A DNA stretch of 64,000 bases, taken from assembly GCF_019469425.1 (NCBI RefSeq), contig NZ_CP048272.1, forward strand, positions 558,001 to 622,000, in the 5' to 3' direction. Origin of the DNA: Bifidobacterium asteroides. GTDB taxonomy: Bacteria > Actinomycetota > Actinomycetes > Actinomycetales > Bifidobacteriaceae. Each line of letters opens with the position of its first letter. Positions within the stretch are counted from its first letter, which is position 1. The position numbers and the translations under genes are program-made. Positions 26,713 to 56,343 of the stretch are shown piece by piece. The notes below the pieces were generated by a model, which saw only the letters and a program-made list of their open reading frames with translations, was not told where the DNA came from and made no database searches.

Positions 26713-26716
26713 GGTC

Positions 26717-35508: not shown

Positions 35509-35516
35509 AGGACAAC

Positions 35517-35525
35517 AATATAATA
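35517..35525 (-). promoter_or_regulatory. AT-rich -10 region of the Pkb2-like kinase
   Basis: On the minus strand TATTATATT ends 8 nt before ATG 35508. Either TATTAT or TATATT could be the -10 box; the second gives a leaderless start. The -35 is not evident. Confidence 0.4.
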
Positions 35526-35557
35526 GCCGCACTTAACTAGGCCTGATGGGGTCCCTG

Positions 35558-35661: not shown

Positions 35662-35955
35662 ATGGCAAACGTATCAGTCAGTTATGGTGATCTTGACACT
35701 GCTGTCAGTGACTTGAGGAATGGCCACGATACGCTGGTTTCCGAATTGAACACATTGAAGAGCAAAATTGATGCTCTCGTCAGCGGCGGGTTCGTCACTG
35801 ATCGTGCTTCTGGTGCTTTTCAGCAGTCTTACGAGGAGTTTACCAAAGGTGCGACTCAGACGGTTGACGGACTGAATGGCATGGAAGACTTCTTGAACAA
35901 GACCAAGCAGTCGATGACTGATTTGGACACTCAGTTGGCCAGCTCCTTGCAGTGA
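35662..35955 (+). CDS. WXG100-family (ESX-like) secreted protein
   Basis: 97 residues, the family's typical length, predicted as two helices with a turn. In place of the W-x-G turn it has SGGFVTDRASGAF, a variant found in other actinobacterial family members, and the second helix reads FLNKTKQSMTDLDTQLASSL. WXG100 proteins are exported as dimers by EssC/EccC ATPases without a classical signal peptide. The GGAGAGG ribosome-binding site precedes ATG 35662 (an in-frame ATG at 35626 is rejected). It has its own promoter and is followed by a 457-bp gap, so it is probably transcribed at a higher level than the rest of the locus. Confidence 0.85.
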   Translation: MANVSVSYGDLDTAVSDLRNGHDTLVSELNTLKSKIDALVSGGFVTDRASGAFQQSYEEFTKGATQTVDGLNGMEDFLNKTKQSMTDLDTQLASSLQ

Positions 35956-36412
35956 ATGGAACGGCATCGGGAATCAGGATGCGCTTGTTTTGAAGCACTT
36001 CGGTGATCGAGTGCAAAGGGCAGTTGTTATTGAGCTTGGTTTTGCAGAAGTGCTGTAATAGCGCGCTGACAGGTGCAGGTTTCGCGGATTAGCTGAGTGC
36101 AGTCTCCTGAGCTCGGCAGGGAGGATGCTTCTCTTCGCGGTTCCCGCATCTTGTCTATGTGTCGAGCATTGCCTATATGCAATCGGGGCATAACTGTCAG
36201 AGTTTGATTCGTTATGCCCTTCTCGGTATTTTCGATGCTGCATGTCTTCAGAGTTCTGGGCATATGTCGTGGCGGCCAGAAGGGTTTAGCTGTTTATGCT
36301 CCGTTATGGCGGTCCTTCCTGCGGTACCTGATGCCTTGCCCTGTCCAGCGGCTATAGGGCTTTGAGCATATTTGGATTGTGGATAATCAGACTGAGATAT
36401 CTGGGGAGAGAA
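35956..36412 (+). other. Gene-free stretch between WXG100 and the second kinase
   Basis: No credible coding sequence on either strand. It contains a 9-bp inverted repeat at 36186-36219, the -10-like GATAAT at 36382-36387, and is noticeably more AT-rich than the flanking housekeeping regions. It probably ends the WXG100 transcript and starts the operon of the secretion machine. Confidence 0.5.
36186..36219 (+). terminator. Terminator-like inverted repeat
   Basis: GGGCATAAC (36186-36194) pairs perfectly with GTTATGCCC (36211-36219), 16-nt loop, followed by TTCTCGGTATTTT. The T-run is late, so termination is only probable. Confidence 0.4.
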
Positions 36413-38146
36413 GTGGTTGCTGAGAATACGGTAGTCGGGGGACGATATCGTATCCTGACGCAGATAGGCAAGGGCGGAATGTCCACCGTCTATCTCGCGC
36501 TCGATACTTCGCTGAATAAACAGTGGGCCGTCAAAGAGATCAAGCAAGTGACGGATCCCGTCAAACGCGACATGCTCATCAAGAGCATCACCGTTGAAGC
36601 TAACATGATCAAACGCTTTGACCATCCCTCCATTCCCCGGATTGTCGATTTGATTGACGACCATGGCACTCTTTACGTCGTCATGGATTACGTTGAAGGG
36701 CGTACGCTTGCCGATATTCTTAAGAACGAGGGTCCCCAGCCTGAGGATACGGTCGTAGATTGGGGGATACAGCTTTGCGATGCCCTTGATTATCTTCATC
36801 GTCGCCATCCTCCGGTCGTGTATAGGGATATGAAGCCCTCAAACGTGATGGTTACTCCGGATGGAGCTATCAAGCTGATAGACTTCGGCATCGCCATAGA
36901 GATGGGCGCAGACGAGAATCGTGGTTCGCTCATCGGCGACGACAGGCAATTGGGCACTCCCGGCTATGGTGCTCCGGAGCAGTTCTCCGAAAAAGGACGT
37001 ATCGATCAGAGGACCGATATCTATGCCTTGGGTGCCACGCTTTATAATCTCTTGACAGGCGAACATCCTCGTCCAGGGTCGTTCAAACCCATTCGTGAGC
37101 TTGTATCCACCCTGTCTCCGGGGTTGGAAAGCGTCGTGGCCACGGCGACACAGAGCAATCCTGACGACCGTTTCCAGAATTGCGCTGAAATGGCCTTTGC
37201 GCTTCGGCATTATAAGGAAGTCGACGAGGTTCATCGTCAGGCTTTGTCCAGGAAGTGGCGCACTTTCCTCGGCACGGCAATTGCCTCAGTGGTTTGCCTC
37301 GCCCTGTCCGCCTGTTCCCTGGGAATGGCATATCGGACGCGCAACGGAGATTTTCGGTATTGGATGGAGCAGGCCACTCAGACCACGGTAGATGCCAGGG
37401 CTGAAAGCGATTATGTTCGGGCAGCTTCCATCAAGCCCGACTCAATAGAACCTTATCTGAGCCTTATCAGCATGTATACCGCCGATGGAAGTTTTGACAG
37501 CAAAGAGGAGCACGTCTACAACGCAACGATTACCGAACATGCCGACGCCCTTCGCAGGCATGCCGACGACTGGTCCCGTCTCTGCTTCGAAACCGGGAAG
37601 TTGTATTGGTACTACTACGACGCTCCTGAAAATGACAAGTCGGTGCCGACCACGGCCGCATCGAATCAGGAGTCGGCCAGAATGGACAGGATCCGGGCTG
37701 CGTCGCCGTGGATGCACGACGCTGCTGGAAACAAGAAATTCAAGAGCGCCGGTCTTGCGGATATATACGCTGGCATGGCGGATTTCAACACACAGATCGT
37801 TCCTCTTATCAATGAAGGGTCGGATGCAGGCAGATACAAGCCTTACGCAAAGCGGTTGCAGCAGCTGATGGATGCTTCTCATGGGGAAAGCAATGATGTC
37901 ATTCGTCTCGAGGTGTCCAACATGACCTTGGATGCCCTGCGCATATTCCCCAGGAAGTTCAGAGCGGATGGTGTGACCAAGGAAGCGATGGATTCCCTGG
38001 CCGACAAGGCCATTTCCTTGGCTGGTACGGTCACGCCCACAACCACTGTACTCGATGAGAAAAAGCAGGAGGCTAATGAGTCGGCACGGGTTGTCCACTC
38101 GGAGATCGACAACGCCTTTGTAGACATCAAAGGAGATAAACGGTGA
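36413..38146 (+). CDS. Membrane Ser/Thr protein kinase of the type VII locus
   Basis: 577 residues from GTG 36413 (GGGGAG just upstream; a TTG at 36362 is also in frame). Kinase domain at about residues 7-265: IGKGGMSTVYLAL, catalytic Lys41 (WAVKEI), catalytic loop VVYRDMKPSNVM in which the usual His of HRD is Tyr, DFG (LIDFGIAIE) and APE-like GAPEQF. One membrane helix (about 280-303, FLGTAIASVVCLALSACSLG) is followed by about 270 residues outside. These are helical and Tyr/Asp-rich with no recognised fold, perhaps TPR-like. It overlaps the next gene by GTGA. Position and topology suggest it senses the cell surface and phosphorylates locus proteins. Confidence 0.88.
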   Translation: MVAENTVVGGRYRILTQIGKGGMSTVYLALDTSLNKQWAVKEIKQVTDPVKRDMLIKSITVEANMIKRFDHPSIPRIVDLIDDHGTLYVVMDYVEGRTLADILKNEGPQPEDTVVDWGIQLCDALDYLHRRHPPVVYRDMKPSNVMVTPDGAIKLIDFGIAIEMGADENRGSLIGDDRQLGTPGYGAPEQFSEKGRIDQRTDIYALGATLYNLLTGEHPRPGSFKPIRELVSTLSPGLESVVATATQSNPDDRFQNCAEMAFALRHYKEVDEVHRQALSRKWRTFLGTAIASVVCLALSACSLGMAYRTRNGDFRYWMEQATQTTVDARAESDYVRAASIKPDSIEPYLSLISMYTADGSFDSKEEHVYNATITEHADALRRHADDWSRLCFETGKLYWYYYDAPENDKSVPTTAASNQESARMDRIRAASPWMHDAAGNKKFKSAGLADIYAGMADFNTQIVPLINEGSDAGRYKPYAKRLQQLMDASHGESNDVIRLEVSNMTLDALRIFPRKFRADGVTKEAMDSLADKAISLAGTVTPTTTVLDEKKQEANESARVVHSEIDNAFVDIKGDKR

Positions 38147-38583
38147 GCACCCAGACCTGGAGAATGCTGGCCCTTGTATTTCTGGCGATCGCCTTTGTCC
38201 TGGCCATTGTTGCGATCGTGCTGTTCAGGATACTGCACATACGTCAGGTGCGGGATGTGCTTACCGGCCGCAGTGAGGCTGAGGAGATTGAGCGGATGCG
38301 CTCAGCCAGAGCCGGAACATGGGGAATGGCCGACTTCCAGAAGTTCGGTGCTGCCGGCCGCAAGGAATCTGACGAATCCAACTGGCGAAAACCGGCATCT
38401 CCCTCAACTCAATCCGTTGAATTCAAGGTGCACTCCGTGGATACCCCGTCTGAACCGGTTTCGCAGGCGAGCGGCGCCAAGGACTGGGATGACGAAGGGG
38501 CGACTTCATTGATGGGCGACGGGCATGTCCAATCCGGCGATGCTGATGATGAAGCCAAGACCACGCTTGCAGGAAGGTCCTAA
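38143..38583 (+). CDS. Small one-TM protein with acidic threonine motifs
   Basis: 146 residues of unknown family. A membrane helix near the N-terminus (ALVFLAIAFVLAIVAIVLF) is followed by a soluble cytoplasmic tail. The tail carries two acidic Thr motifs, DDEGATSLM (near 116) and DDEAKTTLAG (at the end), of the pT-x-x-[LIV] kind that FHA domains read. It starts with GTG overlapping the kinase stop (GTGA), so kinase and protein are coupled. Inferred role: a substrate of the neighbouring kinase that docks an FHA protein at the membrane. No homologue is recognised. Confidence 0.7.
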   Translation: MSTQTWRMLALVFLAIAFVLAIVAIVLFRILHIRQVRDVLTGRSEAEEIERMRSARAGTWGMADFQKFGAAGRKESDESNWRKPASPSTQSVEFKVHSVDTPSEPVSQASGAKDWDDEGATSLMGDGHVQSGDADDEAKTTLAGRS

Positions 38584-38586
38584 ACA

Positions 38587-41500
38587 ATGGAAAAACACAG
38601 TGGACGGAGTGGACTGCTTTGCAGCATCATTTGCTTGATCGGCTTGCCGGCACTGGCTTTCTGCCTTTGTTTGCTGGCACAGATGTTCGTTCCCTTACAA
38701 GCCATGGCCGCCCCCGCTGAAGGTGGTGGGAGCCATGTAGATGTGTCCATGCACTATCAGCAGACAAAACCTGATGATGATATAACCGACGGTAAAACGT
38801 GGGTGGCATATGGCGACAGAACCATCACCATGACCATTCGGCAGGTTCCTGCAGACCAGGGCGAACTCACTGTTACGGATGCCAGGATAACCAGCAGCTC
38901 AACCGATTCGGCATGTCCTGTCTTGAAAAAAGAAGCGGATGCCTACACGCTCACCTATCAAGACCCGGCTGGGGAGCAGAGTGGTCAAGAGTATGGCTTG
39001 AGCAAATGCCAGTTAGCAGTCAACTACTCTCTGAAACCAACAGACGGCAACGGGAATGCTTCAGTCTCCAAGATGACCTTCAAAAAGTCGCTGGACGAAA
39101 TAGGAATGACCACTCTCGACGCCCGAGGAGAATCCGTACCTTTCGCAAGTACTGTGCATTCGTTGATTGTGGATTCCACTCCGGACAGGAGTGTTCGGCT
39201 ATGGGTGGAAGGGCAGCCTGAGGGTGACCCACTACGTGGCAACTTCAGAAAGGCTGATTCCGTATCGCTCTCATCAAAGGATCCCTGGATAGATCGTGTA
39301 GTCAATATCGCCTATGCCAACCATAAACGGGACCATCCCGATGCCCCCTTCAGCCTGATGACGCTGGATCAGGAACCCAGGCAGAACCAGGCCGATGATC
39401 CCAGGCATGAAGAGCCGTTTAAGCTCGCCTGCCCTACAGGCACTTATAGTGCGGATAGCCGACGGATAACGAAAGGCCCGAAGGATCATCAGGGATCATG
39501 GAATGTGCTCACTCCCTCGTGCAGGCTGGTCAATATTAAAGACTTGAGTTCATACAACTCGAATGCCAGGTATACAGCAAAAGTGCAGGACGAGATAGCA
39601 AAGTATCTGCGTCCGGAGGATCCCGCGCGGAATGCTGAGTTCCTCTCATTCGTCTATGATACGCAAATTCCGATGCTGACTTCCGTATCATATATTCAGC
39701 CCGGTCATGACAGTAACTCTGATGATCGGGATTACGCGTTTCCCGGTGACGGGGTCATGGCCTTCAAGGATCGCACTGTCAGACTGAGGGTCAAGGATAA
39801 GCTTCCCCTTAGACCAGCGGTGGACAAAGAGGGCAACCCGCAGGACAGACAGCTGGACAGGACTGATCAAGCATCTGATTCCAATGCCTCCGGCGCGGAT
39901 ACTCTCATCCTGACTGGAAGTCGATATTCGGACACCAGCAAGCAGCATGGGGCTCAACTTGTGGAGTGTCCCTCGGGCGGCACAACCCCAACCAGCAAAG
40001 GCTGCGACTATACAGTGAGCACTGGGACTGACCCTACTTCCCCCAGCTCCCGGTTTTTTGACGTGAATTTCAGCTCAACCGGCTATTACGATTTGACTTC
40101 CATCACGGCAAAAGTGGTCGATAAGGCAGGGAATGAAGACCAGGCTTTTGCTTTGAAAGGAGCCACTGAAGACGGCAAAGCCCCAGACACGAGCCATATG
40201 ATCGGCAAGCTACTGATAGACCTGAGCTATCAGGACTCCGGCGATCAACTGAGAATTGCAGTAACCAGCCATCATGACCATGCCTCTCAGGCGCCGGATG
40301 CGGTTCCCCCTGCCCCATCAGGCAGCGACCTGTATTATTACAACTCCGATGTGGATCTGACGCTACAAGTCAAAAGTGCGCTTCTGAAGGATTATCTGCT
40401 GCTGATTGCCAATCAGCCGGGACAGAGCCAACAAAAAATCAAGTTGCTGAAATACAATCTGGCGCCTCCTGCAGGCACCAACGACACAGAAACGACCTGT
40501 ACCATTGACCCGACCAGTTTGAAGAGCAGCAGCGCCCAATGGAGGTGGAGCCTTCCATGTGGTGGAGGAATCGATCACCTATCGGACGGGTCGAATCCCG
40601 CCAACGGTGCATATACCTTCAAGCTCAACGATAGTTTTCTGCCGAGCTTCCTAGGGGCTACCGTCAAGTTCGGCATCGATACGAACCCGCCTGTGGTCAG
40701 TGAATTCGAAGGACCTACCGGTGGCCACGATCTGAAGCTGGTCAAATTCAATGGCCAGACCATTGTTACCAGCCCCTCGGGGAACAGTGTGAGGGTTCGG
40801 GTCCAGGATCTTCTCCCCAAGGAGCAGCGGGGGAACGAGCGAATCGACACTGCTGCCCAGCAGGGTACGTCCGGGATCTCCGACGGAGGCGACAAAAATA
40901 ACCGTTTCGGCAGTGTCGTGGTCGAAATGCCCGCTCCGAAGGATCTGAACCGCAAGCTCATAAGCAACGGCACAGCCAACAAGCTGCAGACTCTGCCGAT
41001 CAACAATGATGGTCGGTTTACCATACGCTTCGATGACGAGGGGCTGTACGATCTGTCTGAAGTCAAACTTACCGTCCATGACCGGGCGGACTATCCCAAG
41101 GCCAGCAATGATGGGGCTGGAAGCGCGACGGGGAATGGTCTTACGACCAATCTTGCAGACTTGGTCAAACAGCATGAGCAAACCAACAGTTTTGGCGAGC
41201 CCTATGATGCCTTGGTGATCGATAATCCAAGGGGAAAGAGGGAAGCCCGGATATCCCTGAGTCAGGCGGAGGGGAACCCGCCCTCGACAAAGCCTGGATA
41301 CTACTTCAGAGGGGATGCCATTGTCGATTTCTCAGTGACCGATAGATGGTTCCCCCTTTATCAGAAATTGGATGAAACCACGCACAAGCACTTCTTGAAT
41401 CCAACAGTGGCGCCATCTTCACCGACTGATTTCCCAGCGGTCCCGTTCGGGCAAAAAGCCTGGGAGCGTGTCAAGTCGGAGTCGGACACCTGGATATATC

Positions 41501-43863
41501 GCGGATATCAAGTTCCCCGCTCGGTTGTCAACTCTGATCTCCCTCATGAAGGGACATACAAACTGGATGTCTCCTATGCGGGTCTGCAGTCCGACAGCCA
41601 ATATTTCGCCTCTGCGCATTCTGAGTTCGTCATCGACTATACAGGGCCCAAGCTGGGCGGTTTGCATCTGTCGACGACCGCTCCTCAGCATTGGCAGTGG
41701 GTCTTCCCCACCTCCCCCTTGCATGTCTCCCTGGACGGCGTCAATGATGCCGTGTCAGGGATTGATGCCCAGACATTGGCCTTCGCTGATTTCAGGGGCC
41801 CTGACCCCACACCAATGCTCGGTTATGACCCATGGCTGGCACCACAAGGCGCGGATACGCCTGAATCGACTCTGCGGTTCGAATCGGATGATGTGGTGGG
41901 CTTCGACATGAACACCGACAGCCAGCGCCTGAGGTTCGACGGCACGTCGATTGCCGTCAAGGACAAGGCCGGGAATCCTTCATCGACGCATGCTCTGGAC
42001 GCCTACGGCGATAAGCAGAGCGGCATCGTCAATGACGCCAGAGGACTTACCGGGGCGGCTTTGGACTTTGCTTCGCCCAAGCTATCCCTGAAGTATGACA
42101 ACAACGATGTCAGGAACGGGAAATACTACAAGGCCAAGAGGGTGGCGACCGTGACCATCGACGAGTCGAATTTCGACTTCGTAGCCGGGCACGATAGCAA
42201 GCGCGTCATCGTCACCTCCGCGGTGGATGGTCGAAAGTCGCAACTCAGGGCCGAGGATTTCTCCAACCCCAGCGGCGACAAGCACACCTACGTGGCGAGC
42301 CTCAGTTGTGAAACCGACGGCGACTGGGTGATGGATGCGGCCTTTACCGATCCGGGGGATCATCAGGGCAATCCGGTACATGACGAATTCGTCATCGATA
42401 CGACCAGACCCGTCCTTTCCCTTGCCTTTGACAACAATGACAGCAAGAACGGCATGTATTACAAGGCTCCGAGGGTGGCGACCGTCAAACTGGTCGAGCG
42501 CAACATGAGCGACAAAGAATCGACGGTAACGACCACAGCCAAGAACGATGCCAACCAGGATGTTCCCGCGCCTTCGGGCGACGGTTGGTCGCAGATCGGT
42601 GATGCCGGCAAGTACACGTTTGTCCAGCATGTCCCCTTCTCAGGGGAGCATCATTATACCCTAGAAGCTAGGGCGACCGATTTGGCAGGGAACGTCGCCG
42701 ATGCGGCCAAGGAACCAGAGTTCGTCGTCGACATGACCAAGCCTGATCTCCATATCGACAAAGTGGAGGACAAGACTGCGTACGCCGGCACCGTTGCTCC
42801 TCGGATCATGGCCGTCGATGCCAACATGGATCAGGGGAAGACGACCTACGAGCTTGCGGGAGACCGACGGGGCAGGATCAAGTCGATCGACCTCGATGCC
42901 CAAGAGGGCGGGGACGATAATTCACTCACTGTCGATATCCCCGATTTCAAGCGCAAGGCTGAGAACGACGACGTGTACACCCTGACCGCCAAGAGCGAGG
43001 ACATGGCGGGGAATTCGGCCACCGTCACCAAAACATTCTCAGTCAACAGATTCGGTTCCACATACCTGTTCTCTGCGGGGACGGCGTCGATCAGAGGCGC
43101 CTATCTGAAAAAGGCGGTGCCGGTCACTGTCACCGAGCTGAACGTCAGCGGCATCGACCAGAGGAATTCGAGAATCGACTTGGCAAAGGACGGGCGCATA
43201 GGCACTGTACCCGAATCCGGCTACCAGGTCATCAAGTCTACTGACAAGGGCTGGAGCAAGCAGACATATGAGATACCGGCAAATGTGTTTAAGGGTGACG
43301 GGTATTATCGCCTGATGTTCACATCGACCGACAAAGCAGGTAATTTGTCGGAGAACTCGATGCAGCACAAGGATGCCAAGCGGAAGGGCGATGCATCCGT
43401 GAACTTCGCCCTGGATTCGCAGGCTCCTACCGTCTCTGCGCTCGGCATCGACTCCAACCGTGTATATTACGGGCAACGACGTGACGTCGGAATCGATGCC
43501 AAGGACAACATGAAGATCCGCTTGGCGAAAGTCTATGTCGATGGCGTAAAGCGCGGCGAATGGCCTGAGAATGACCTCCTGAAGGGCATGCAGTACATCG
43601 ACTTGCCGGCCGATGCGCATAACCATACGGTGACTGTCAGGACTGAGGATGCGGCCGGCAACGTGTCGACAGCCACATACCATGGTGTTATTGTGGCCTC
43701 GAACTTGTGGCAATACATACGCGAGAACGGTTTGCTTTTCGTCCTGGTCGTCTGTACGGGGATCCTTTTTGTCCTGATGATTCTGGTGGCTGCCGTCCTG
43801 ATTGTTCGTCGGCGCTCGGAACTCGCCTACAGGCGCAATCCCTTCGGCAAATCAGGACGGTAG
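38587..43863 (+). CDS. Giant surface protein with Ig-like modules and C-terminal membrane anchor
   Basis: 1,758 residues. An N-terminal signal peptide (LLCSIICLIGLPALAFCLCLL, ending near AMAAPAEGG) and a C-terminal helix (LLFVLVVCTGILFVLMILVA) with a short basic tail (VRRRSELAYRRNPFGKSGR) make it type I, nearly all outside. The second half holds repeated bacterial Ig-like modules: YDNNDVRNGKYYKAKRVATV near 1169 and FDNNDSKNGMYYKAPRVATV near 1280 are clear duplicates, and many modules end in EFVIDxTxP linkers. There is no LPxTG motif. It begins 4 nt after the previous stop and ends 4 nt before the EssC gene, so it belongs to the secretion operon. It may form the extracellular part of the machine, a place taken by EsaA in Firmicutes; this is inference. 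Confidence 0.85.
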   Translation: MEKHSGRSGLLCSIICLIGLPALAFCLCLLAQMFVPLQAMAAPAEGGGSHVDVSMHYQQTKPDDDITDGKTWVAYGDRTITMTIRQVPADQGELTVTDARITSSSTDSACPVLKKEADAYTLTYQDPAGEQSGQEYGLSKCQLAVNYSLKPTDGNGNASVSKMTFKKSLDEIGMTTLDARGESVPFASTVHSLIVDSTPDRSVRLWVEGQPEGDPLRGNFRKADSVSLSSKDPWIDRVVNIAYANHKRDHPDAPFSLMTLDQEPRQNQADDPRHEEPFKLACPTGTYSADSRRITKGPKDHQGSWNVLTPSCRLVNIKDLSSYNSNARYTAKVQDEIAKYLRPEDPARNAEFLSFVYDTQIPMLTSVSYIQPGHDSNSDDRDYAFPGDGVMAFKDRTVRLRVKDKLPLRPAVDKEGNPQDRQLDRTDQASDSNASGADTLILTGSRYSDTSKQHGAQLVECPSGGTTPTSKGCDYTVSTGTDPTSPSSRFFDVNFSSTGYYDLTSITAKVVDKAGNEDQAFALKGATEDGKAPDTSHMIGKLLIDLSYQDSGDQLRIAVTSHHDHASQAPDAVPPAPSGSDLYYYNSDVDLTLQVKSALLKDYLLLIANQPGQSQQKIKLLKYNLAPPAGTNDTETTCTIDPTSLKSSSAQWRWSLPCGGGIDHLSDGSNPANGAYTFKLNDSFLPSFLGATVKFGIDTNPPVVSEFEGPTGGHDLKLVKFNGQTIVTSPSGNSVRVRVQDLLPKEQRGNERIDTAAQQGTSGISDGGDKNNRFGSVVVEMPAPKDLNRKLISNGTANKLQTLPINNDGRFTIRFDDEGLYDLSEVKLTVHDRADYPKASNDGAGSATGNGLTTNLADLVKQHEQTNSFGEPYDALVIDNPRGKREARISLSQAEGNPPSTKPGYYFRGDAIVDFSVTDRWFPLYQKLDETTHKHFLNPTVAPSSPTDFPAVPFGQKAWERVKSESDTWIYRGYQVPRSVVNSDLPHEGTYKLDVSYAGLQSDSQYFASAHSEFVIDYTGPKLGGLHLSTTAPQHWQWVFPTSPLHVSLDGVNDAVSGIDAQTLAFADFRGPDPTPMLGYDPWLAPQGADTPESTLRFESDDVVGFDMNTDSQRLRFDGTSIAVKDKAGNPSSTHALDAYGDKQSGIVNDARGLTGAALDFASPKLSLKYDNNDVRNGKYYKAKRVATVTIDESNFDFVAGHDSKRVIVTSAVDGRKSQLRAEDFSNPSGDKHTYVASLSCETDGDWVMDAAFTDPGDHQGNPVHDEFVIDTTRPVLSLAFDNNDSKNGMYYKAPRVATVKLVERNMSDKESTVTTTAKNDANQDVPAPSGDGWSQIGDAGKYTFVQHVPFSGEHHYTLEARATDLAGNVADAAKEPEFVVDMTKPDLHIDKVEDKTAYAGTVAPRIMAVDANMDQGKTTYELAGDRRGRIKSIDLDAQEGGDDNSLTVDIPDFKRKAENDDVYTLTAKSEDMAGNSATVTKTFSVNRFGSTYLFSAGTASIRGAYLKKAVPVTVTELNVSGIDQRNSRIDLAKDGRIGTVPESGYQVIKSTDKGWSKQTYEIPANVFKGDGYYRLMFTSTDKAGNLSENSMQHKDAKRKGDASVNFALDSQAPTVSALGIDSNRVYYGQRRDVGIDAKDNMKIRLAKVYVDGVKRGEWPENDLLKGMQYIDLPADAHNHTVTVRTEDAAGNVSTATYHGVIVASNLWQYIRENGLLFVLVVCTGILFVLMILVAAVLIVRRRSELAYRRNPFGKSGR

Positions 43864-43866
43864 ATC

Positions 43867-48941: not shown

Positions 48942-48943
48942 TC

Positions 48944-49267: not shown

Positions 49268-49880
49268 TCAGGACATCCATTTCAGTATGGCGATCCCCGA
49301 TGACTGGGAACGAATGGATCTTACCGGAAGGGGGAGGCGGGATTACGCCTGCATTCAGGCCCAAAGAGTGGCGGAGCAGATACCGGCTTTGGCGAGCAAA
49401 AGGAAGGTGATAGAGAACAGCCTCTACCATGAGCTCACATCTTCTTGGGCAAAGGGCGTGAGGTATGGGGCCGCAATGGCGCAGCCCACTGCCGATGGGT
49501 TTCTGGACGCTTCGATAACTGTCTCGATCCTTCCTGAGCCTCCTCATCACGACGAAGAGTCTGTTTTCGAGGCGATATCCGCCACCGTCCATGAGAATGA
49601 TGAAGATTCGGATGGTGATGACGAGTCGGATGTTTCGATGATCAATCTGCCCCGGGCGGGGAGGGCGGTGCGGGTTTTGGGGCATCGTACCCTGCACCCG
49701 GGCGAAGGCTCCTCATCCCTCAAGTATTCGATCTTGCAGACTTTTATCCCTTTTGGAGGTCGTGTGGTCATGGTGATGGGTTCCACTTTTTCCTCTGATG
49801 TAGAGGATCAGTTATTTGAATTGTTCGATTTGATCACCGGTACATTGTCGGTATGGCTTGAGAGGGGCGTTGACAGATGA
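49260..49880 (+). CDS. Unknown alpha/beta protein of the type VII locus
   Basis: 206 residues, no signal peptide or membrane helix. The pattern (IHFSMAIPDDWERM at the start, DASITVSILPEPP, an acidic loop EDSDGDDESD, then SILQTFIPFGGRVVMVMGST and LFELFDLITGTLSVWL) resembles the PsbP/Mog1-like fold of LpqN/DcrB-type domains, a weak impression. It is tightly coupled on both sides (8-nt overlap upstream, ATGA downstream), between the small helical protein and the candidate effector. This suggests an adaptor or chaperone for export. Confidence 0.6.
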   Translation: MTDQDIHFSMAIPDDWERMDLTGRGRRDYACIQAQRVAEQIPALASKRKVIENSLYHELTSSWAKGVRYGAAMAQPTADGFLDASITVSILPEPPHHDEESVFEAISATVHENDEDSDGDDESDVSMINLPRAGRAVRVLGHRTLHPGEGSSSLKYSILQTFIPFGGRVVMVMGSTFSSDVEDQLFELFDLITGTLSVWLERGVDR

Positions 49881-51352
49881 GTTTGGGTCTTGACTGGTCC
49901 GTGATCGAGTTATCCATGGATCCTGTACCCGGGGATCCGGCCGGGGTCAGGCAGTGTGCCGCCAAGGCAAGGTCGAAGTCTTCAACAGTGGATTCACTTA
50001 AAGATGATGTGAGCCGAATCAGGTCCGATCACGACAATGGCTCCGTGTTCGTCGGCAAAGCGGCGAACAAGTTTATCTCCAAGCTGGACGATTTTCCCAG
50101 CAACCTTTCCAGCTTATCGAATGGATTGAGCGCGACGTATAAGACCCTGGATTCATGGTCCGCCTGCATGGAGGATTGCCAGCGCAGGGCCGGCAATGCC
50201 TATCATCGGGCGGTGACGGCCAAGAACAGCATTGCCAGTGCGCGGTCAAATCTGGATGGCGCTAGCGGCGACGCATTGAAGGCCAATGCCGACAAGGATC
50301 TGCTACAGGTCAAGCGTACGCTGGGCGCGGATGTCGATGATGCGGATATGCGACGGGCGCAGCGCCGTGCCGACGCGGCCGAGGGGCAGGTGGCTTCTTT
50401 CCGTAGACAGCTGGAAAGCGCGCAGGGATCGTATGATGCAGCTCGGCGCGATGTTCTCAAGGCTGGCGATGAGTACAATAACGGTGCCGACACCGCTGTT
50501 CGCGGGCTGAACGGGGCCCTGGACGATTTGCCGCCTGTCTCAATGTTCGATCGTATCTATTACAGCGATACCTGGCGGACGATCGTCAAAGTCGCAGAGA
50601 TAGCCGGCTATGTTGTTAGCGCAGCGATGATATTGTTAGGGCCTGGAGGCATACTCGGCCTGCTTGCTTTCGCGCTGGCCGCCGTAGGCTTCGCAAATGA
50701 TCTGCTGGCTTATGCCCATGGAGATGAAAATAGGAAGCAATTAGGGCTTGGTGCTCTTTCAATGATTATGTCTTTTCCGGGTGGTGCAGCGAAAGAGGGC
50801 GCAGCTGGTTTGCGGTTTTTCGCCAATTCAAAGGAATTGCCGATGTATCAGCGGGTGATCGGCGGGCTGAATTCGTATGGCCGCAACTCCGGCATGGTCA
50901 CGGATGTCGAGACCGCATTCTGGGCAAGCAATTTTAAATTGTTTGATGAAACTGGCCTCGTTAAGAAAGGGAATGCTATGGGGGTCATTGTGGATCTTGG
51001 CCTCGGAAGAAAAAAGGAAGCGACCCGGATATTCAATGATTATCAGATAAGCGGCTTATTGCCGCATGATTGGAAATGGATACTGGGGAAAAGCGATCTG
51101 TACGGGGTCTTCAACCCGGCGGACGTTGCGACGATAAAGCGGTATGGGCTGGATGCAAGCCGCGAGGCTTTGCGCCAAGACGCAATGAAGAATGTGATCA
51201 AGGATATGGTGGATGCAGAAAAGCGTGTCGAAGACCATAAAGCTGAGGGCAAGAGTGGGCTTGGGGCCGGCTTGACGGAGTGGGCCGGCCTGCTTGCCCC
51301 GGCTGCGCCGGTCCTTGGCCTGGCGGGTGAAGTGGCGGATTCGAGGCTTTGA
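49877..51352 (+). CDS. LXG-like candidate type VII effector
   Basis: 491 residues. The N-terminal 110 residues look like an ESX/LXG-type export domain (WSVIELSMDPVPGDPAGVRQ, then helices with FVGKAANKFISKL). A long coiled coil follows at 120-215 (RRAQRRADAAEGQVASFRRQ), then a hydrophobic hairpin at 235-280 (VVSAAMILLGPGGILGLLAF), then a C-terminal domain of about 200 residues without a recognised toxin fold. There is no classical signal peptide. The architecture matches polymorphic toxins exported by EssC systems, some of which act on membranes through such a hairpin. It starts with ATGA overlap and is followed after 19 nt by a polytopic membrane gene, a fitting immunity candidate. Confidence 0.7.
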   Translation: MSLGLDWSVIELSMDPVPGDPAGVRQCAAKARSKSSTVDSLKDDVSRIRSDHDNGSVFVGKAANKFISKLDDFPSNLSSLSNGLSATYKTLDSWSACMEDCQRRAGNAYHRAVTAKNSIASARSNLDGASGDALKANADKDLLQVKRTLGADVDDADMRRAQRRADAAEGQVASFRRQLESAQGSYDAARRDVLKAGDEYNNGADTAVRGLNGALDDLPPVSMFDRIYYSDTWRTIVKVAEIAGYVVSAAMILLGPGGILGLLAFALAAVGFANDLLAYAHGDENRKQLGLGALSMIMSFPGGAAKEGAAGLRFFANSKELPMYQRVIGGLNSYGRNSGMVTDVETAFWASNFKLFDETGLVKKGNAMGVIVDLGLGRKKEATRIFNDYQISGLLPHDWKWILGKSDLYGVFNPADVATIKRYGLDASREALRQDAMKNVIKDMVDAEKRVEDHKAEGKSGLGAGLTEWAGLLAPAAPVLGLAGEVADSRL

Positions 51353-51357
51353 GCAAG

Positions 51358-52149
51358 GGGGGTGGTGTGTGATGGCTGGTGGTGTTTCTGGTTCTTTGCG
51401 GCTTCCTGTGGGGAAGTCCTGGCTGGAGAGCGCGTCTTCGATCATGTCGCGGGTGGCGGGGTGCGCGCGTCATGCGGCTGCGGGGGAGCGTGCCTTTTCG
51501 CGTGCTGGCGTGGTGCGCAAGCTGGCGGTGTACGGGACGGCTTTCCTGGCGGGGTTCGTGCCGGGCTGGGCGTTCCTGTATGGGGATGAGCAGTGGATGC
51601 GCGACCGTTTCATCCAGTTTTGCGTGGCTGGCCTGTTTTCGGGTTTTGCGATGTGGTGGTTTTTGGGCCGGTTCGAGGACCGTGGGGGGCGTCCGGGGTT
51701 CTGGTGCCTGGCTTTGACGATGCCGATGATGCCCTGCTGGGGGGTGATGTTCGGCGCGATGACCGGTGAGAGTCCGGGGGTGATGCGTTGGGTGTTTGTG
51801 TCGGTGGCTGTGCTGGTGGTGGCTGGGGTGACCTGGCTGCGGTTTGTGTCGGATCGGGTGCGTAACCGTGTGGCGGCGTGGGCGGCTGCGGCTTCGTCGT
51901 GCGTGGTGCCGTCGTGGATGCTGTGCTTGTTGTTCGGGGGTTCTCCCTTGTCGTGCCTGCCTTGGTGCATGGCGGTGGGCGCGGTGGGCGCCTTGTGGTT
52001 TCTGCAGGACTTGTGGGCGATCGACTATTGTGCGGGCGACAACCGTGATGCCGCTTTCGAATGGCTGGCGGCCTGGGCGCTGATCTTCGACCTGATTACC
52101 CTGGTGGCCGCCCTGGCACGCGGCAGCAGCGCCGCACAAGGACAATGAG
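51358..52149. repeat. 792-bp direct repeat, copy 1
   Basis: Matches 55425-56216 with no gaps at an offset of 4,067 bp. I found only three differences, all in the last 160 bp: 51992 C/T, 52079 G/A (both silent) and 52097 T/G (Ile to Met). The repeat contains exactly the polytopic gene plus 14 bp before its ATG. Confidence 0.95.
51372..52148 (+). CDS. Polytopic membrane protein, copy 1 (candidate immunity protein)
   Basis: 258 residues with about seven membrane helices: LAVYGTAFLAGFVPGWAFLY, FIQFCVAGLFSGFAMWWFLG, LALTMPMMPCWGVMFGAM, VFVSVAVLVVAGVTWLRF, AAASSCVVPSWMLCLLFG, MAVGAVGALWFLQDLWAI and LAAWALIFDLITLVAALA. The count and the Asp in the last helix recall Bax-inhibitor-1-like proteins, but this is not secure. 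Coding-strand bases are very G/T-rich (strings of GTG, GCG, TGG codons), unlike neighbouring genes. It begins 19 nt after the candidate effector; only GGGGGTGG serves as a ribosome-binding site. Nearly identical to the gene at 55439. Immunity to the effector is inferred from position. Confidence 0.8.
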   Translation: MAGGVSGSLRLPVGKSWLESASSIMSRVAGCARHAAAGERAFSRAGVVRKLAVYGTAFLAGFVPGWAFLYGDEQWMRDRFIQFCVAGLFSGFAMWWFLGRFEDRGGRPGFWCLALTMPMMPCWGVMFGAMTGESPGVMRWVFVSVAVLVVAGVTWLRFVSDRVRNRVAAWAAAASSCVVPSWMLCLLFGGSPLSCLPWCMAVGAVGALWFLQDLWAIDYCAGDNRDAAFEWLAAWALIFDLITLVAALARGSSAAQGQ

Positions 52150-52431
52150 GGCGTTGCTGGTGAGGAAGCTTTTGGACTTTTGACGTGTCCGTCGTGCATG
52201 TGGTCTGCTTGGCCGCGGTCGGGTTGGATGCCGGCTGTTTCGTTTGCTGCTGCGCGGCAGCAAGTGAAGCCTGCAATATAGGGAATCGTCCTGGACTTTG
52301 CTGGGCTTCAGGCCTTGCGTGAACGATGTCTACAGCCGGAATGCGATCTACGCTGGCTGTCGACGATGAAGTTGGTTGCGGCGGGATCCGTTCTGGCTGA
52401 CCGCTCGAGTTGCATAGAAGGAAAAGGAACC

Positions 52432-52977
52432 ATGGCTGTTGCCTTGTTTGAAGTTAGGCCGCCTCGTGTGGCAGAGATGAAGGGTTTCGAACCCATGTAT
52501 GACGCGACATTGCGAGAATGCCTGCAGCGGCCGTTCTACCTGTTTGCCCGGGGGCGGGGAAGATCGTGCCGCAAGGAGATATGGGTGTTCTTCATCTTTC
52601 TCTCAATTATAGAGTCGTCCCTGAGTAAGATATGCGGCAGGGGAACCTTCATCCCCCTGGTCTTCGACCTGATCATGGCGGTGCCGGAGTATGCAGTGGA
52701 GGTGCGGCGTCTGCATGATTTATTGCTGCCGGGATGGCTGACTTTGATTCCGTACGGTCTTATGGTTATAGCTACGATTGGGCTGGTGAAATCTCGAATG
52801 CTGACTATAGGTGGCGGTCCTTTGCTCTTGGCTGTCATCCCGTTGCTTGTGTCGATGGTGATTCAGCTGGTCATCATGTGCTCGCCTTCCCGGCGTCGTC
52901 ACCGTCCGTCCTTTGACAATGGGGCAATAGGGGCGGGAGTGAACCAGCCGGGTATGACTCGACCTCGGACTGACTAG
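52432..52977 (+). CDS. DUF805-like membrane protein
   Basis: 181 residues. It shows the DUF805 hallmarks FYLFARGRGRSCRKEIWVFF and VRRLHDLLLPGWLTLIP, with about four membrane helices. DUF805 proteins are small inner-membrane proteins of unknown function, often next to secretion or phage genes. ATG 52432 follows AAGGAA. The 282 bp upstream hold no gene; they contain a small hairpin (TTGCTGC / GCAGCAA, 52244-52263). An open frame from 52315 is in phase but lacks a ribosome-binding site. Confidence 0.78.
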   Translation: MAVALFEVRPPRVAEMKGFEPMYDATLRECLQRPFYLFARGRGRSCRKEIWVFFIFLSIIESSLSKICGRGTFIPLVFDLIMAVPEYAVEVRRLHDLLLPGWLTLIPYGLMVIATIGLVKSRMLTIGGGPLLLAVIPLLVSMVIQLVIMCSPSRRRHRPSFDNGAIGAGVNQPGMTRPRTD

Positions 52978-53042
52978 CCTGTACGGCAAGGATCAATGGC
53001 CGGTGAGGAACCGCACGTGTGGATTTATATAAGGAGACTGGG

Positions 53043-53567
53043 ATGACTGATACTGCTGCGGACGTGGAAGGACAGGGAACCGCTGGGGTGAGTGTGGATG
53101 AGCAATTATTGCAAGGCCTTCCGACTCCCGTTGTCCGCATAATACGACTGCTCGCTCAGCGGGGGATACCCTCGTTCGTCGATGCCAGCGGCGGCCCTGT
53201 ACTGGTGCCGCTGGTTGAGTGCGGCATTAATTTTGTAATGAGCAGAAGTCTGGATTCCATTGGTTTCAGAAGTCTGTGGAGCCGGGGATTCAGCTCCGCA
53301 AGGTATCGGGATGCAGTGAATATCTGCGCTGAATGGAACCGATCGGTTGGATATCTCAAGGCCTATGCCACCGAACCCTCCTTAGAGCAGAACCAGGCCG
53401 TCAGGATAGCGGGAGCCGGGCAGATCGTGTGCGACGAGCGGGAAGAGGTGCTTGGACAGCGTCTCGATGATTCCATCTATCTCATACAGAATTTTTATGC
53501 TTGGGTGAATGAGCAATGCCCGGATCCCATACGCATACCGAATGCACCATACGGAAGAAGGGCATGA
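53043..53567 (+). CDS. YbjN-like protein 1
   Basis: 174 residues. Pattern consistent with the YbjN family, whose fold resembles type III secretion chaperones: IRLLAQRGIPSFVDASGGPV at the start of the fold, then ARYRDAVNICAEWNRSVGYLK (the family's N-x-W-N-R-x helix) and YLIQNFYAWVNEQC. AAGGAG lies just before ATG 53043. It is followed by a second, shorter YbjN-like gene, so the pair may form a heterodimer. Suggested role: cytosolic chaperone or adaptor for exported proteins of this locus; not proven by the sequence. Confidence 0.7.
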   Translation: MTDTAADVEGQGTAGVSVDEQLLQGLPTPVVRIIRLLAQRGIPSFVDASGGPVLVPLVECGINFVMSRSLDSIGFRSLWSRGFSSARYRDAVNICAEWNRSVGYLKAYATEPSLEQNQAVRIAGAGQIVCDEREEVLGQRLDDSIYLIQNFYAWVNEQCPDPIRIPNAPYGRRA

Positions 53568-53583
53568 ATAATTGGAACAGCCG

Positions 53584-54003
53584 ATGAAATCCGTGGTTGA
53601 CGGGAAGAGAATACAGCAGTGGTTGGATGCCCAAGGATATCGTGTCGAGTATTATGAGCAGTCCTGGGTCGGTTTATGGGGGAATATTCTGCTCGATTTC
53701 AGCGTACGTGGCGAGCATGATGAGTATCTGGTGGTTCGCGGGACTGAACAGGGCAGTCATCCGAATGATCAGCTCGAGTTGCTTGAGGACTGTTGCAATG
53801 CCTGGAACCGGGGCTATGAGGGGCCGGCTGCCTATCTGCAGAGTTCCGAGGAAGGCCTGGTCTTCCGCACGCTTTTGGTGGTGAACTGCCAGGGCGGCAT
53901 GGACGACGATCAGTTCGATCGCCTGATGAAGTATGCCATGGCGGGTTCGGACGGTTTCCTTGGTTTCGCCCAGGGGCAGCTGTCGAAGATAAGGATGAGC
54001 TAG
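53584..54003 (+). CDS. YbjN-like protein 2
   Basis: 139 residues with the same plan as the preceding gene: IQQWLDAQGYRVEYYEQSWV, LLEDCCNAWNRGYEGPAAYL (again the N-x-W-N-R helix) and FDRLMKYAMAGSDGFLGFA. A TTG at 53572 is in frame; ATG 53584 has GGAAC upstream. The stop is one base before the GTG of the EssB-like gene, so these are cotranscribed. Same inferred chaperone-like role. Confidence 0.65.
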   Translation: MKSVVDGKRIQQWLDAQGYRVEYYEQSWVGLWGNILLDFSVRGEHDEYLVVRGTEQGSHPNDQLELLEDCCNAWNRGYEGPAAYLQSSEEGLVFRTLLVVNCQGGMDDDQFDRLMKYAMAGSDGFLGFAQGQLSKIRMS

Positions 54004-54004
54004 G

Positions 54005-55315
54005 GTGAAGTGCAGGGTCAGGCGTGACCGTGCTTCCGGAGCTCGCACGCTGGCGGTAAAACCGACCCGGGGTGAAATACCTGACCTGGCGCTGGCTCAG
54101 GTTCTGCTTTCGGGAAGGTATGCGGATTACCTGCTTCCTTTCACCTACGAAGGGGATCTGCGAGATGCCAGGTTCTACTATGATTTGACCGGAGCCACAT
54201 CCCTGGGCCGTGTTCTGCGGCATGGCATGACCGCGGACCGGTATGCCGGGGTTTTGCAGGCCATAGGGGATGTGGCTCGGGTGTGCGCGGAGGAGCGCGC
54301 GGTCCTGCAGACCGTGCTCTGGCATCAGGATTACCTCTACTTTGCCGGTGATGACACGGTTCCGCGAATGATGCAGGTTCCCATCGTCAATGGTCCTTAC
54401 TTCGATGCCAGTCCCCTTTCCCTGCTTTTCAGACTCAGCAAGGTCGACACTGGCGCTTTCGGGCACCCGGAGTGGTCGCGGTCGGTTGAGGCGTTCACGC
54501 GAACAAGCAAGGAGTTCAGTACGGATGCCTACCATGCCATGCTGGCATCGATCCTTCCGGCAGGCAGGCCCCGGACCCTGCCGGGAGGCGATGGCGCCAG
54601 CGCCGCATCCTCGGGCTTTGAAACCCGGAGCCAGAACGATGCCGGGACGGGCTCATCCGGCACGGATCCGACCGGGGATCATGCGGGTGAATCCCATGGC
54701 GAGGAAGATGAATACTACTCGGAAACGATTCTCAAGCTGCCGGAGGAGGGAGCTGCCGCGGGGGCTCCCTCTGGGGATCGGGCTCTGGAACCCGATGACC
54801 ATCCGGGAATTCGACTTTCGGATGAGGGCAATGACGGGGACACCGTTCTGGACATGTCCCCTCATCCCGACCAGGACATACGCAGGGCGGGCGAGGCCTC
54901 CGGCCTTTCCGGCGATGAGGGGCCGGCCAGCCCCAACATGAGCAGGTGGCCCCGCTTCCGTGTCACCAGGATCCGGGATGGATACCAGGTGGATTGCAAC
55001 CAGGATACGGCCACCATAGGGAGATCGGCCCGGGCTGACATCCATATGGGCGGCAATACGAACGTCAGCAGGATACATGCCCAAATCAGCCGTCTGCCTG
55101 GTGGCGGGTTCGAGATAACAGACCGGCATTCCTCCAATGGGACCAGGGTGTCCGGCCGTCTGCTCGCGCCTGGTGAAACTGCGCCTATCGGCCCTTCGGG
55201 CGCCTTCTCACTTGCTGATTCCGACTTCGTGATCGAAGAGCTTGACCACGACGGGGCGACGGGGCCGTGGAGCGGTTCTTCTTCTCCCTCTGGCCTAGGA
55301 GATAATGATGTCTGA
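54005..55315 (+). CDS. EssB-like / DUF6382-like protein fused to an FHA domain
   Basis: 436 residues. The N-terminal 185 residues resemble the pseudokinase-like part of EssB/DUF6382 proteins: YLLPFTYEGDLRDARFYYDL, TGATSLGRVL, and LWHQDYLYFAGDD, matching the usual HPENLYF-type turn. A disordered acidic linker (185-315) contains two pT-like motifs, EEDEYYSETILKL (near 240) and GNDGDTVLDMS (near 278). The C-terminal FHA domain has TIGRSARADIHM, VSRIHAQIS and DRHSSNGTRV. EssB is a core part of Firmicute type VII machines. No membrane helix is visible, unlike EssB. A phospho-switch, in which a phosphorylated linker binds its own FHA as in GarA, is plausible. GTG start with AGGATGAG upstream. Confidence 0.75.
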   Translation: MKCRVRRDRASGARTLAVKPTRGEIPDLALAQVLLSGRYADYLLPFTYEGDLRDARFYYDLTGATSLGRVLRHGMTADRYAGVLQAIGDVARVCAEERAVLQTVLWHQDYLYFAGDDTVPRMMQVPIVNGPYFDASPLSLLFRLSKVDTGAFGHPEWSRSVEAFTRTSKEFSTDAYHAMLASILPAGRPRTLPGGDGASAASSGFETRSQNDAGTGSSGTDPTGDHAGESHGEEDEYYSETILKLPEEGAAAGAPSGDRALEPDDHPGIRLSDEGNDGDTVLDMSPHPDQDIRRAGEASGLSGDEGPASPNMSRWPRFRVTRIRDGYQVDCNQDTATIGRSARADIHMGGNTNVSRIHAQISRLPGGGFEITDRHSSNGTRVSGRLLAPGETAPIGPSGAFSLADSDFVIEELDHDGATGPWSGSSSPSGLGDNDV

Positions 55316-55424
55316 GTCGAGCGGCGGGCGTGCCGGTGCCAGGGGATGTCGGATGCTTTATTCTGGTGGAGGCAGTGACGGTCCGAGTGGTCGGCAGCTG
55401 CTCTTTCCTTGTGTGATGTTGCCC

Positions 55425-56216
55425 GGGGGTGGTGTGTGATGGCTGGTGGTGTTTCTGGTTCTTTGCGGCTTCCTGTGGGGAAGTCCTGGCTGGAGAGCGC
55501 GTCTTCGATCATGTCGCGGGTGGCGGGGTGCGCGCGTCATGCGGCTGCGGGGGAGCGTGCCTTTTCGCGTGCTGGCGTGGTGCGCAAGCTGGCGGTGTAC
55601 GGGACGGCTTTCCTGGCGGGGTTCGTGCCGGGCTGGGCGTTCCTGTATGGGGATGAGCAGTGGATGCGCGACCGTTTCATCCAGTTTTGCGTGGCTGGCC
55701 TGTTTTCGGGTTTTGCGATGTGGTGGTTTTTGGGCCGGTTCGAGGACCGTGGGGGGCGTCCGGGGTTCTGGTGCCTGGCTTTGACGATGCCGATGATGCC
55801 CTGCTGGGGGGTGATGTTCGGCGCGATGACCGGTGAGAGTCCGGGGGTGATGCGTTGGGTGTTTGTGTCGGTGGCTGTGCTGGTGGTGGCTGGGGTGACC
55901 TGGCTGCGGTTTGTGTCGGATCGGGTGCGTAACCGTGTGGCGGCGTGGGCGGCTGCGGCTTCGTCGTGCGTGGTGCCGTCGTGGATGCTGTGCTTGTTGT
56001 TCGGGGGTTCTCCCTTGTCGTGCCTGCCTTGGTGCATGGCGGTGGGCGCGGTGGGCGCTTTGTGGTTTCTGCAGGACTTGTGGGCGATCGACTATTGTGC
56101 GGGCGACAACCGTGATGCCGCTTTCGAATGGCTGGCGGCCTGGGCACTGATCTTCGACCTGATGACCCTGGTGGCCGCCCTGGCACGCGGCAGCAGCGCC
56201 GCACAAGGACAATGAG
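55425..56216. repeat. 792-bp direct repeat, copy 2
   Basis: Copy of 51358-52149 on the same strand, ungapped, three substitutions (56059, 56146, 56164). No insertion-sequence ends or target duplications are visible at its borders. Confidence 0.95.
55439..56215 (+). CDS. Polytopic membrane protein, copy 2
   Basis: 258 residues, identical to the protein at 51372 except Met for Ile in the last helix (IFDLMTLVAALA). It lies 123 nt after the EssB-like gene, with no adjacent candidate effector, and thus looks like an orphan duplicate. The recent copying or gene conversion is clear from the near-perfect DNA identity. If copy 1 is an immunity protein, this copy would raise dosage or protect against kin. 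Confidence 0.8.
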   Translation: MAGGVSGSLRLPVGKSWLESASSIMSRVAGCARHAAAGERAFSRAGVVRKLAVYGTAFLAGFVPGWAFLYGDEQWMRDRFIQFCVAGLFSGFAMWWFLGRFEDRGGRPGFWCLALTMPMMPCWGVMFGAMTGESPGVMRWVFVSVAVLVVAGVTWLRFVSDRVRNRVAAWAAAASSCVVPSWMLCLLFGGSPLSCLPWCMAVGAVGALWFLQDLWAIDYCAGDNRDAAFEWLAAWALIFDLMTLVAALARGSSAAQGQ

Positions 56217-56343
56217 CATGCCCCAGGATGTGGACTTTTTATGGCTGGGTAGCGCGAAGTGATGGACAGACAGGGGCCGAAAGCGCAGCGTGGCGTGGAA
56301 TGTGAGCGTTTGTCCCCTGGCTGATTGATTCAGAGGCATGTTT

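Follow-up and report, generated by a model that had tools for sequence, protein, structure and literature searches.

Among type VII secretion systems (T7SSs), the subtype closest to the locus described here is T7SSd, which the portion available to us of the survey by Garrett, Higginson and Palmer (2024, PMC11217815) defines by the WXG100 protein TsdA, the EssC-type ATPase TsdC with FHA, the kinase TsdD, TsdH, a single-helix protein with a short cytoplasmic part, and the large Ig-like protein TsdI. In that portion, T7SSd is found in Actinomycetota, including Olsenella and Bifidobacterium, a ubiquitin-like protein is reported missing from it, and a DUF6382-FHA protein (J) is described only for Bacillota systems. 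A T7SS in Bifidobacterium was already reported in 2016 (PMC4965825) and 2018 (PMC5758520), in the excerpts accessible to us. The locus analysed here lies in a stretch of 64,000 nucleotides (the window), which corresponds to positions 558001-622000 of a 2.23-Mb Bifidobacterium genome. It is of the T7SSd kind, a label that a first-pass annotation of this DNA had already brought up, with D, H, I, C and A as described in the accessible text of PMC11217815; TsdD, TsdH and TsdI were recognised here, and also in G546, a genome of another class, by topology, order and homologues compared with that description (G-numbers denote the compared genomes). Since Garrett et al. name TsdA, TsdC, TsdD, TsdH and TsdI, the core parts and the existence of such a locus are not new, and the claim of the first-pass annotation that the parts list is undescribed had to be given up for the core.

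How the parts are combined across the family tells a different story. Two EssC lineages recur in the 151 Bifidobacteriaceae genomes searched: 11 loci hold type I, the lineage of the window, and 10 loci of type II were followed. The kinase D, the tail protein H and the surface protein I adjoin EssC at 9 of the 10 further type I loci inspected and at 6/10 type II loci, H and I being separated by an additional gene at some of them; neighbour conservation, by which the first-pass annotation had let its reading stand or fall, is thus found with both lineages. Compared with the window copies, identity at the more distant type I loci of G001, G034 and G006 is 48-49% for D and 33-39% for I, and at type II loci 49% for D and 32-41% for I, whereas EssC identity drops from 49-60% in the distant type I loci to 26-28% in type II. 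In the EssC tree, type I groups with EssC of other actinomycete families, to which it is 36-40% identical, while type II groups with EssC of G546. A single clade for the EssC proteins of the family is rejected in a second EssC tree, from which G143, G114b and G088 were left out as long branches (log-likelihood lower by 644.5, approximately unbiased test p-AU 2e-48). G116, a type II locus, has D and I that group with those of G107, G136 and G147, but its EssC groups with that of G102, and a tree that holds G116 EssC with G107, G136, G147 and G150 is rejected (p-AU 1e-9). By these comparisons the EssC motor and the D-H-I envelope module have recombined, probably twice. However, three type II loci have D-H-I at a distance of 6-16 kb from EssC, the clades tested were named after the first trees had been seen, and the trees fit an exchange in which either the motor or the module moved, all of which weighs against this reading. 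Aside from these two lineages under one module, G239 holds an actinomycete EssC of the type I lineage with kinases nearby, and a further EssC-like gene is present at G119:C34, G143:C4 and G114:C52, with open frames of 1311-1847 residues, the G114 copy being a long branch that adjoins neither type I nor type II.

The envelope module also occurs where no motor is near. The outer domain of D gave 38 matches in 35 of the 151 family genomes, and phylum-wide it was found in 2/396 genomes, that of the window and G546. Among the 31 strongest family matches, which were fetched (the 7 weakest, 23-32% identical, were left out), 10 D loci lie beside type I EssC, 9 go with type II, and 12 are without EssC in the fetched stretch. 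A TIGR03928 search of 22 genomes returned only FtsK-like hits in G013, G061, G079, G081, G022 and G045, whose completeness is 99, 99, 99, 99, 90 and 82%, respectively; these same six genomes each have one WXG100 gene over the cut-off. In G119 and G114 the further EssC-like gene is on another contig, and in G006, G034 and G005 EssC is present at another locus. On this gene content, the kinase/tail/surface module can be parted from the EssC motor, which has the look of an exchangeable unit that relatives replaced or lost. This suggests that, in a secretion system, the envelope components may persist when the motor is lost or exchanged. Against this stand the position of some of the 12 EssC-less D loci near contig ends, the type I EssC of G005 and the EssC of G088, which have no D nearby, and a 111-residue EssC remnant between I and J in G023, which indicates that D-H-I without EssC can mean loss of EssC.

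It is conceivable that D, H, I, C and A simply co-evolved as one plain T7SSd machine, that the EssC-less loci are leftovers of it and that the EssC types reflect fast divergence. The EssC fragment beside D-H-I-J in G023 fits this explanation, as do G546, where D, H and I co-occur with EssC 15 kb away, and the WXG100 genes located between I and EssC in both types (G034 and G006 in type I; G102, G107, G147 and G116 in type II). The C-terminal tail of I, which carries the motif YRRNPF in the window copy, is a further argument for it, as the tail motif correlates with EssC and is rarer at loci where EssC is absent (30/31 loci counted; the I of G033, cut by the fetched stretch, was left out), even if the EssC-linked loci of G034, G006 and G546 are without the motif. 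However, fast divergence does not readily explain why type I EssC is nearer to EssC of other actinomycete families than to type II, why one clade is rejected, or why six genomes in which EssC was not found retain D-H-I operons, part of them with J, and we regard this explanation as unlikely.

A more appealing scenario, to which we incline with modest confidence, is that a kinase-gated T7SS came about when an ATPase cassette docked onto a surface module for phospho-signalling, the two parts being of different origin. Part one would be the envelope module, in which D spans the membrane and senses the outside via its helical domain, H holds a cytoplasmic tail with threonine motifs at the membrane, the giant Ig-like protein I crosses the wall and pairs with H, and J may act as a soluble pseudokinase-FHA adaptor. 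Part two would be the export cassette, comprising WXG100, EssC with a ubiquitin-like domain of its own, FHA1 (a separate FHA protein encoded next to EssC) and a 206-residue partner, as well as a putative LXG-like effector, its small partner and putative membrane immunity proteins. In this scenario a signal at the cell surface would activate kinase D, which would phosphorylate H (and J) on threonines; FHA1 and J would dock on these phosphothreonines and so recruit EssC to the H-I complex, where, close to I, EssC would export WXG100 and the effector, with nearby bacteria as the probable target. Gene content, conservation, the recombination of EssC and D-H-I, D-H-I without EssC, H-I fusions, motif counts, FHA distribution and predicted folds are computed observations; phosphorylation, FHA docking, gating, secretion and the effector and immunity roles are what we infer. 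Such a scheme would replace the remark that the system "may be regulated by phosphorylation" by a defined circuit, in which the phospho-motifs and the FHA domains that read them are named as candidates. It is testable in bee-gut bifidobacteria, the nearest named relatives of the window genome: the window EssC is 86-87% identical to EssC of Bifidobacterium asteroides, B. mellis, B. choladohabitans and B. sp. 7101, which makes a bee-gut Bifidobacterium the most likely source of the window as well. A bolder version, which we offer only tentatively, is that D-H-I-J is an autonomous phospho-signalling host controlling a giant wall-spanning protein, and that T7SSd arose more than once by the docking of unrelated EssC cassettes as guests.

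Kinase D, correctly recognised as a membrane kinase from the start, has the catalytic motifs AVK, YRDMKPSN and DFG and one predicted membrane helix (residues 300-324 of a 594-residue open reading frame, with a GTG start inferred from 577-residue relatives). The RD-K-N catalytic loop is intact in 28/31 D proteins (G013 was read from the identical G081), and the loop arginine is lost in those of G033, G021 and G005b (FAD, FSD and FCD). These are the three type II loci that carry J and in which the EssC FHA domain is weak or not found, and it is possible, by analogy with EssB, that they switched away from active-kinase wiring. The tails of H often repeat acidic-x-T-hydrophobic motifs (TTLL, APTVL, SDGTVVSDGTV); DEGATSL and DEAKTTL are candidate sites for phosphorylation by D. 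Counting T followed by V, I, L or M, with D or E within the four preceding residues, gave 75 motifs over 29 tails, at least one per tail, compared with a mean of 25.05 and a maximum of 43 in 1000 shuffles; the count covers 29/31 loci (G119 and G045 were left out, and the rows of G079, G061, G022, G006c, G034c, G021 and G005b were trimmed manually), and the window H alone has 1 motif versus 0.3 in shuffles. However, this rule and that for the I tail were chosen post hoc, after the sequences had been seen, the tails share kinship, and only 8/29 have a count that was reached singly by fewer than 50 of the 1000 shuffles. Likewise, the H of G546 gives 6 motifs versus 3.8 in shuffles, a count that 169/1000 reach and that is not significant; this tail gives no independent support, though it shows 12 looser T-x-V-L-like repeats. 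H and I form one protein in G079, G061 and G022, genomes that fall on two distinct D-tree branches, and it is because of these fusions that we consider the H tail to be tied to I. I itself has one hydrophobic segment per end (residues 6-43 and 1710-1747), in agreement with the first-pass annotation of an anchored surface protein of 1,758 residues. Beside the type II EssC of G102 and G150, I is split over two or more frames and seemingly interrupted; only its C-terminal piece was used there and the pieces were left unjoined.

The distribution of FHA domains would provide the readers for such motifs. FHA1, recognised as an FHA protein already in the first annotation, lies directly 3' of EssC at 10/10 D-linked type I loci by FHA profile, and the FHA domains of type I EssC itself show the phosphothreonine signature in 0/11 cases (signature and profile). 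Among type II EssC proteins, an FHA domain is found in 6/10 by profile, plus one weak case (G033, 19 bits), and in 5/10 by signature, the signature expression having missed G102. At the D-linked type II loci the FHA domain is in EssC itself in 6/9, and the remaining 3 carry J. A profile-positive FHA domain is therefore present, in cis or in trans, at all 19 loci that combine D and EssC, because FHA1, an EssC FHA domain or J occurs at each. This rule has to be weighed against the profile having been seeded partly from 5 type II EssC FHA domains, against six EssC-less loci at which no FHA gene was found nearby with the profile, and against the occurrence of J at just 4/10 D-linked type I loci. 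J had been taken for an EssB-like/FHA fusion, a view that we abandoned: it has a clear FHA match (4.4e-11) and a DUF6382 match that is below the cut-off in the window copy (0.027) yet present in 10/11 members of the J family (best 7.5e-12), no predicted membrane helix and no YukC/EssB match. Its N-terminal part is predicted to adopt a kinase fold, and the 50 structure matches listed are kinases of other families, EssB not being among these 50.

It is also possible that D-H-I-J is an independent phospho-controlled surface system, such as an adhesin or a sensor, and that its adjacency to EssC reflects recombination at a favoured site rather than a joint machine. Such independence would account for the 12/31 D loci without EssC in the fetched stretch and for J accompanying D-H-I without EssC in G013, G081, G114, G119 and G023. 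It would also fit the EssC-less G079 and G061, in which a homologue of the window RecB-like gene follows D-H-I at a distance of a few kb, which suggests the same chromosomal site as the window locus. It is not evident, however, why FHA1 should then track the EssC type, why the tail motif of I should correlate with EssC, or why 19/31 D loci should be near EssC of one of two lineages, and the idea of two unconnected neighbours strikes us as improbable beside that of a module with a docked motor.

As regards the motor, the first-pass assignment to the EssC-type ATPases holds up: the protein has two FtsK_SpoIIIE stretches and reaches 596 bits with TIGR03928, under the 778-bit equivalog cut-off. 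A ubiquitin-like component appears to be fused to its N-terminus, where AF2 models compared by Foldseek and VIA-align predict a ubiquitin-like strand-helix order for residues 1-79 and an FHA fold for the second domain, the VIA-align rows dividing between residues 1-82 and 83-210. The EssC N-terminus is the best YukD match genome-wide, yet below the cut-off, a genome-wide profile search found no free-standing YukD, and the N-terminus of the EssC homologue of G316 passes the YukD cut-off. If so, this would offer a possible answer to where the ubiquitin-like part of T7SSd resides. Several results argue for caution, since the sequence evidence is weak. The 220-residue N-terminal stretch matched no listed family; a YukD match at E up to 10 was obtained in just 2/8 type I N-termini and, among 5 homologous N-termini, in G316 only; single type I members match unrelated families equally or better (DUF7713, 0.025). 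Moreover, the YukD search also gives below-cut-off matches in 3 control genomes besides B. subtilis, and the single Foldseek match that reached E 0.001 was to an FHA domain. That the N-terminus is instead a degenerate FHA or other beta-grasp domain, with T7SSd truly devoid of a ubiquitin-like part, agrees with these low scores and with the two N-terminal FHA domains described for T7SSb EssC in the accessible text of PMC11217815, but we give it little credence in view of the predicted strand-helix order, the split of the VIA-align rows and the G316 match. The ubiquitin-like profile was seeded from 8/11 type I EssC sequences; its hhalign match to type II N-termini (26 columns in the FHA region, 21%) was taken as chance, as were the designed armadillo repeats that lead a PDB search with the N-terminal alignment, ubiquitin-like entries ranking lower.

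On the cargo side, the first of the two WXG100-like proteins proposed at the outset, with its ATG at 35662, is secure, and the second is not: this small partner (start taken at ATG 48944 in a frame that opens at TTG 48938) has no WXG100 match in Pfam, its profile match covers just 24 columns (53%), and it was found in 5 relatives. Homologues of WXG100 protein A lie directly 5' of EssC in G034 and G006, and others are near actinomycete EssC in G167 and G316. A second, orphan WXG100 gene (4.5e-18) is located at C1:1463090-1463383 of the window genome, adjoining a Cpn60 (groEL-type) gene. The 206-residue protein has no accepted Pfam or PDB match; relatives were found by tblastn at 8/10 other type I loci, among them one 92-residue frame only and one on the opposite strand, and by phmmer at the remaining two. 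Since both the 206-residue protein and a WXG100 protein also lie near EssC in the actinomycete G167, they seem to be part of the type I cassette. The proposed LXG-like effector does match WXG100 and T7SS_signal models, but both matches are below the cut-off, and its WXG100-set profile match is 18%; relatives are present at 9/10 other type I loci by tblastn. In G078 the LXG-like protein, the small partner and the 206-residue protein are 75%, 84% and 90% identical to those of the window, and in the other four same-genus relatives 33-35%, 37-39% and 58-60%. The two copies of the adjoining membrane protein, whose candidate immunity role is inferred from position only, are identical at 99.6% over 792 bp in the window, while those of G078 are 93.1% alike, which points to recent duplication or gene conversion. 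These near-identical genes flank the stretch of DUF805, YbjN and J, and could serve the recombination of the segment between them.

Most locus genes overlap or are separated by a few bases, in line with the first description of mostly overlapping frames, and the features are collected in Table 1. Of two YbjN-like proteins that had been proposed, only the one directly upstream of J is confirmed, the 182-residue protein before it having no YbjN match. Back to back with the locus lies a PFNA cluster (Pkb2 kinase, FN3, MoxR ATPase, DUF58 and transglutaminase TgpA; 22961-35532, minus strand), each of the two combining a kinase with a giant surface protein, and the RecB-like gene follows downstream at 56338-60939.

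Table 1. Features of the type VII secretion locus, in window positions
Feature	Position	Strand	Evidence
WXG100 protein A (TsdA-like)	35662..35955	+	PF06013 2.8e-15
Ser/Thr kinase D (TsdD-like), one membrane helix, helical outer domain	36413..38146	+	Pkinase 1.9e-47
One-helix protein H (TsdH-like), cytoplasmic tail with Thr motifs	38143..38583	+	relatives by tblastn; motif count
Surface protein I (TsdI-like), 1758 aa, Ig-like	38587..43863	+	Big_13 1.6e-10, Big_3_3 2e-7
EssC-type ATPase, type I lineage	43867..48441	+	TIGR03928 1.1e-178; trees
Predicted ubiquitin-like (YukD-fold) domain, EssC residues 1-79	43867..44103	+	AF2 plus Foldseek/VIA-align
Predicted FHA-fold domain without phosphothreonine signature, EssC residues 88-206	44128..44484	+	
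FHA1, separate FHA protein, intact signature, overlaps EssC stop	48438..48941	+	PF00498 1.6e-9
Small protein, candidate co-secretion partner	48944..49267	+	5 relatives; WXG100 relation weak
206-aa protein, type I cassette partner	49260..49880	+	tblastn/phmmer neighbours of type I EssC
LXG-like candidate effector, two hydrophobic segments	49877..51352	+	PF06013 0.006, PF21725 0.0093, below cut-off
Multi-helix membrane protein copy 1, candidate immunity protein	51358..52149	+	5 predicted helices
DUF805 membrane protein	52315..52977	+	PF05656 4.1e-8
182-aa protein, no accepted family	53019..53567	+	relatives in G078 and G049
YbjN-family protein	53572..54003	+	PF10722 1.8e-14
J: DUF6382 (predicted kinase fold) + FHA	54005..55315	+	relatives next to D-H-I whether EssC is near or not
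Candidate immunity membrane protein copy 2	55424..56215	+	99.6% identity to copy 1

Three components of other T7SSs, namely EccB, EssB and EsaA, were sought genome-wide. EccB gave no match at E up to 1, and EssB no hit over the cut-off, the best (E 0.138) being outside the locus. For EsaA, the N-terminal model gives only two below-cut-off hits (68 and 34 bits), far from the locus at C1:109980-113098, which we did not take as EsaA; 7/14 control genomes match too, one of them over the cut-off. The proteins encoded there may belong to a wider YhgE/Pip-like family. General Pfam scans of the 17 proteins examined turned up no PPM phosphatase, a further difference from T7SSe.

In the literature that we could search, in part as excerpts, we found no statement that a ubiquitin-like domain is fused to EssC, that D-H-I occurs without EssC or that DUF6382 adopts a kinase fold, and no report of a separate FHA gene, an actinobacterial DUF6382-FHA protein or the 206-residue partner. 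As far as these searches show, the fused ubiquitin-like domain, the actinobacterial J, the cis/trans FHA rule, the motor exchange and the motor-free module are thus new.

Compared with known systems, as the accessible portion of PMC11217815 describes them, the locus shares with T7SSd the WXG100 protein, the kinase with a helical outer domain, the one-helix tail protein, the giant Ig-like protein (TsdI has an N-terminal signal and a C-terminal helix, as has the window I) and the N-terminal FHA fold of EssC. It differs from T7SSd perhaps in its EssC lineage, which is apart from the one shared with G546 (type II, not type I, groups with EssC of G546; TsdC was compared by description), and further in the predicted ubiquitin-like domain fused to EssC, in an EssC FHA domain that is without the phosphothreonine signature and is accompanied by an adjoining FHA gene, and in the presence of J and the 206-residue partner. 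Because neither a phosphothreonine-competent ATPase FHA domain nor the absence of a ubiquitin-like part was found when both were tested, we set the locus apart from plain T7SSd. The T7SSe of Bacillota complements a D/H/I set by TseJ, which joins DUF6382 to FHA, and by the ubiquitin-like TseB, and J is TseJ-like in having DUF6382 at the N-terminus, FHA at the C-terminus and no helix; unlike the predicted domain here, TseB is a separate protein, and T7SSe is confined to Bacillota in that survey. With T7SSb (EssA, EssB, EssC, EsaA and EsaB) the locus has in common the EssC family, candidate LXG-type cargo and, if the scenario above holds, a docking pair of putative pseudokinase and FHA (in the excerpt of PMC9600267 available), but it is without EssB over the cut-off and, genome-wide, without a free-standing YukD, and kinase D keeps its catalytic motifs. 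T7SSa/ESX (EccB-E) resembles it in an EccC-like ATPase, WXG100 and a ubiquitin-like domain fused to another component; that fold is on EccD in ESX according to PMC11217815, whereas here it is predicted on the ATPase, and EccB is absent. Beyond secretion through EssC, control of the cell wall by MviN(Rv3910), PknB and FhaA (PMC12599244, as excerpted), in which MviN carries a pseudokinase fold, likewise involves a membrane kinase, a phosphothreonine on a membrane protein and an FHA adaptor, and the control of a type VI secretion system in Agrobacterium (PMC11217815) also joins a kinase to an FHA protein. The outputs of these two differ from that proposed here, and the likeness, drawn from their descriptions, lies in the wiring of kinase and FHA.

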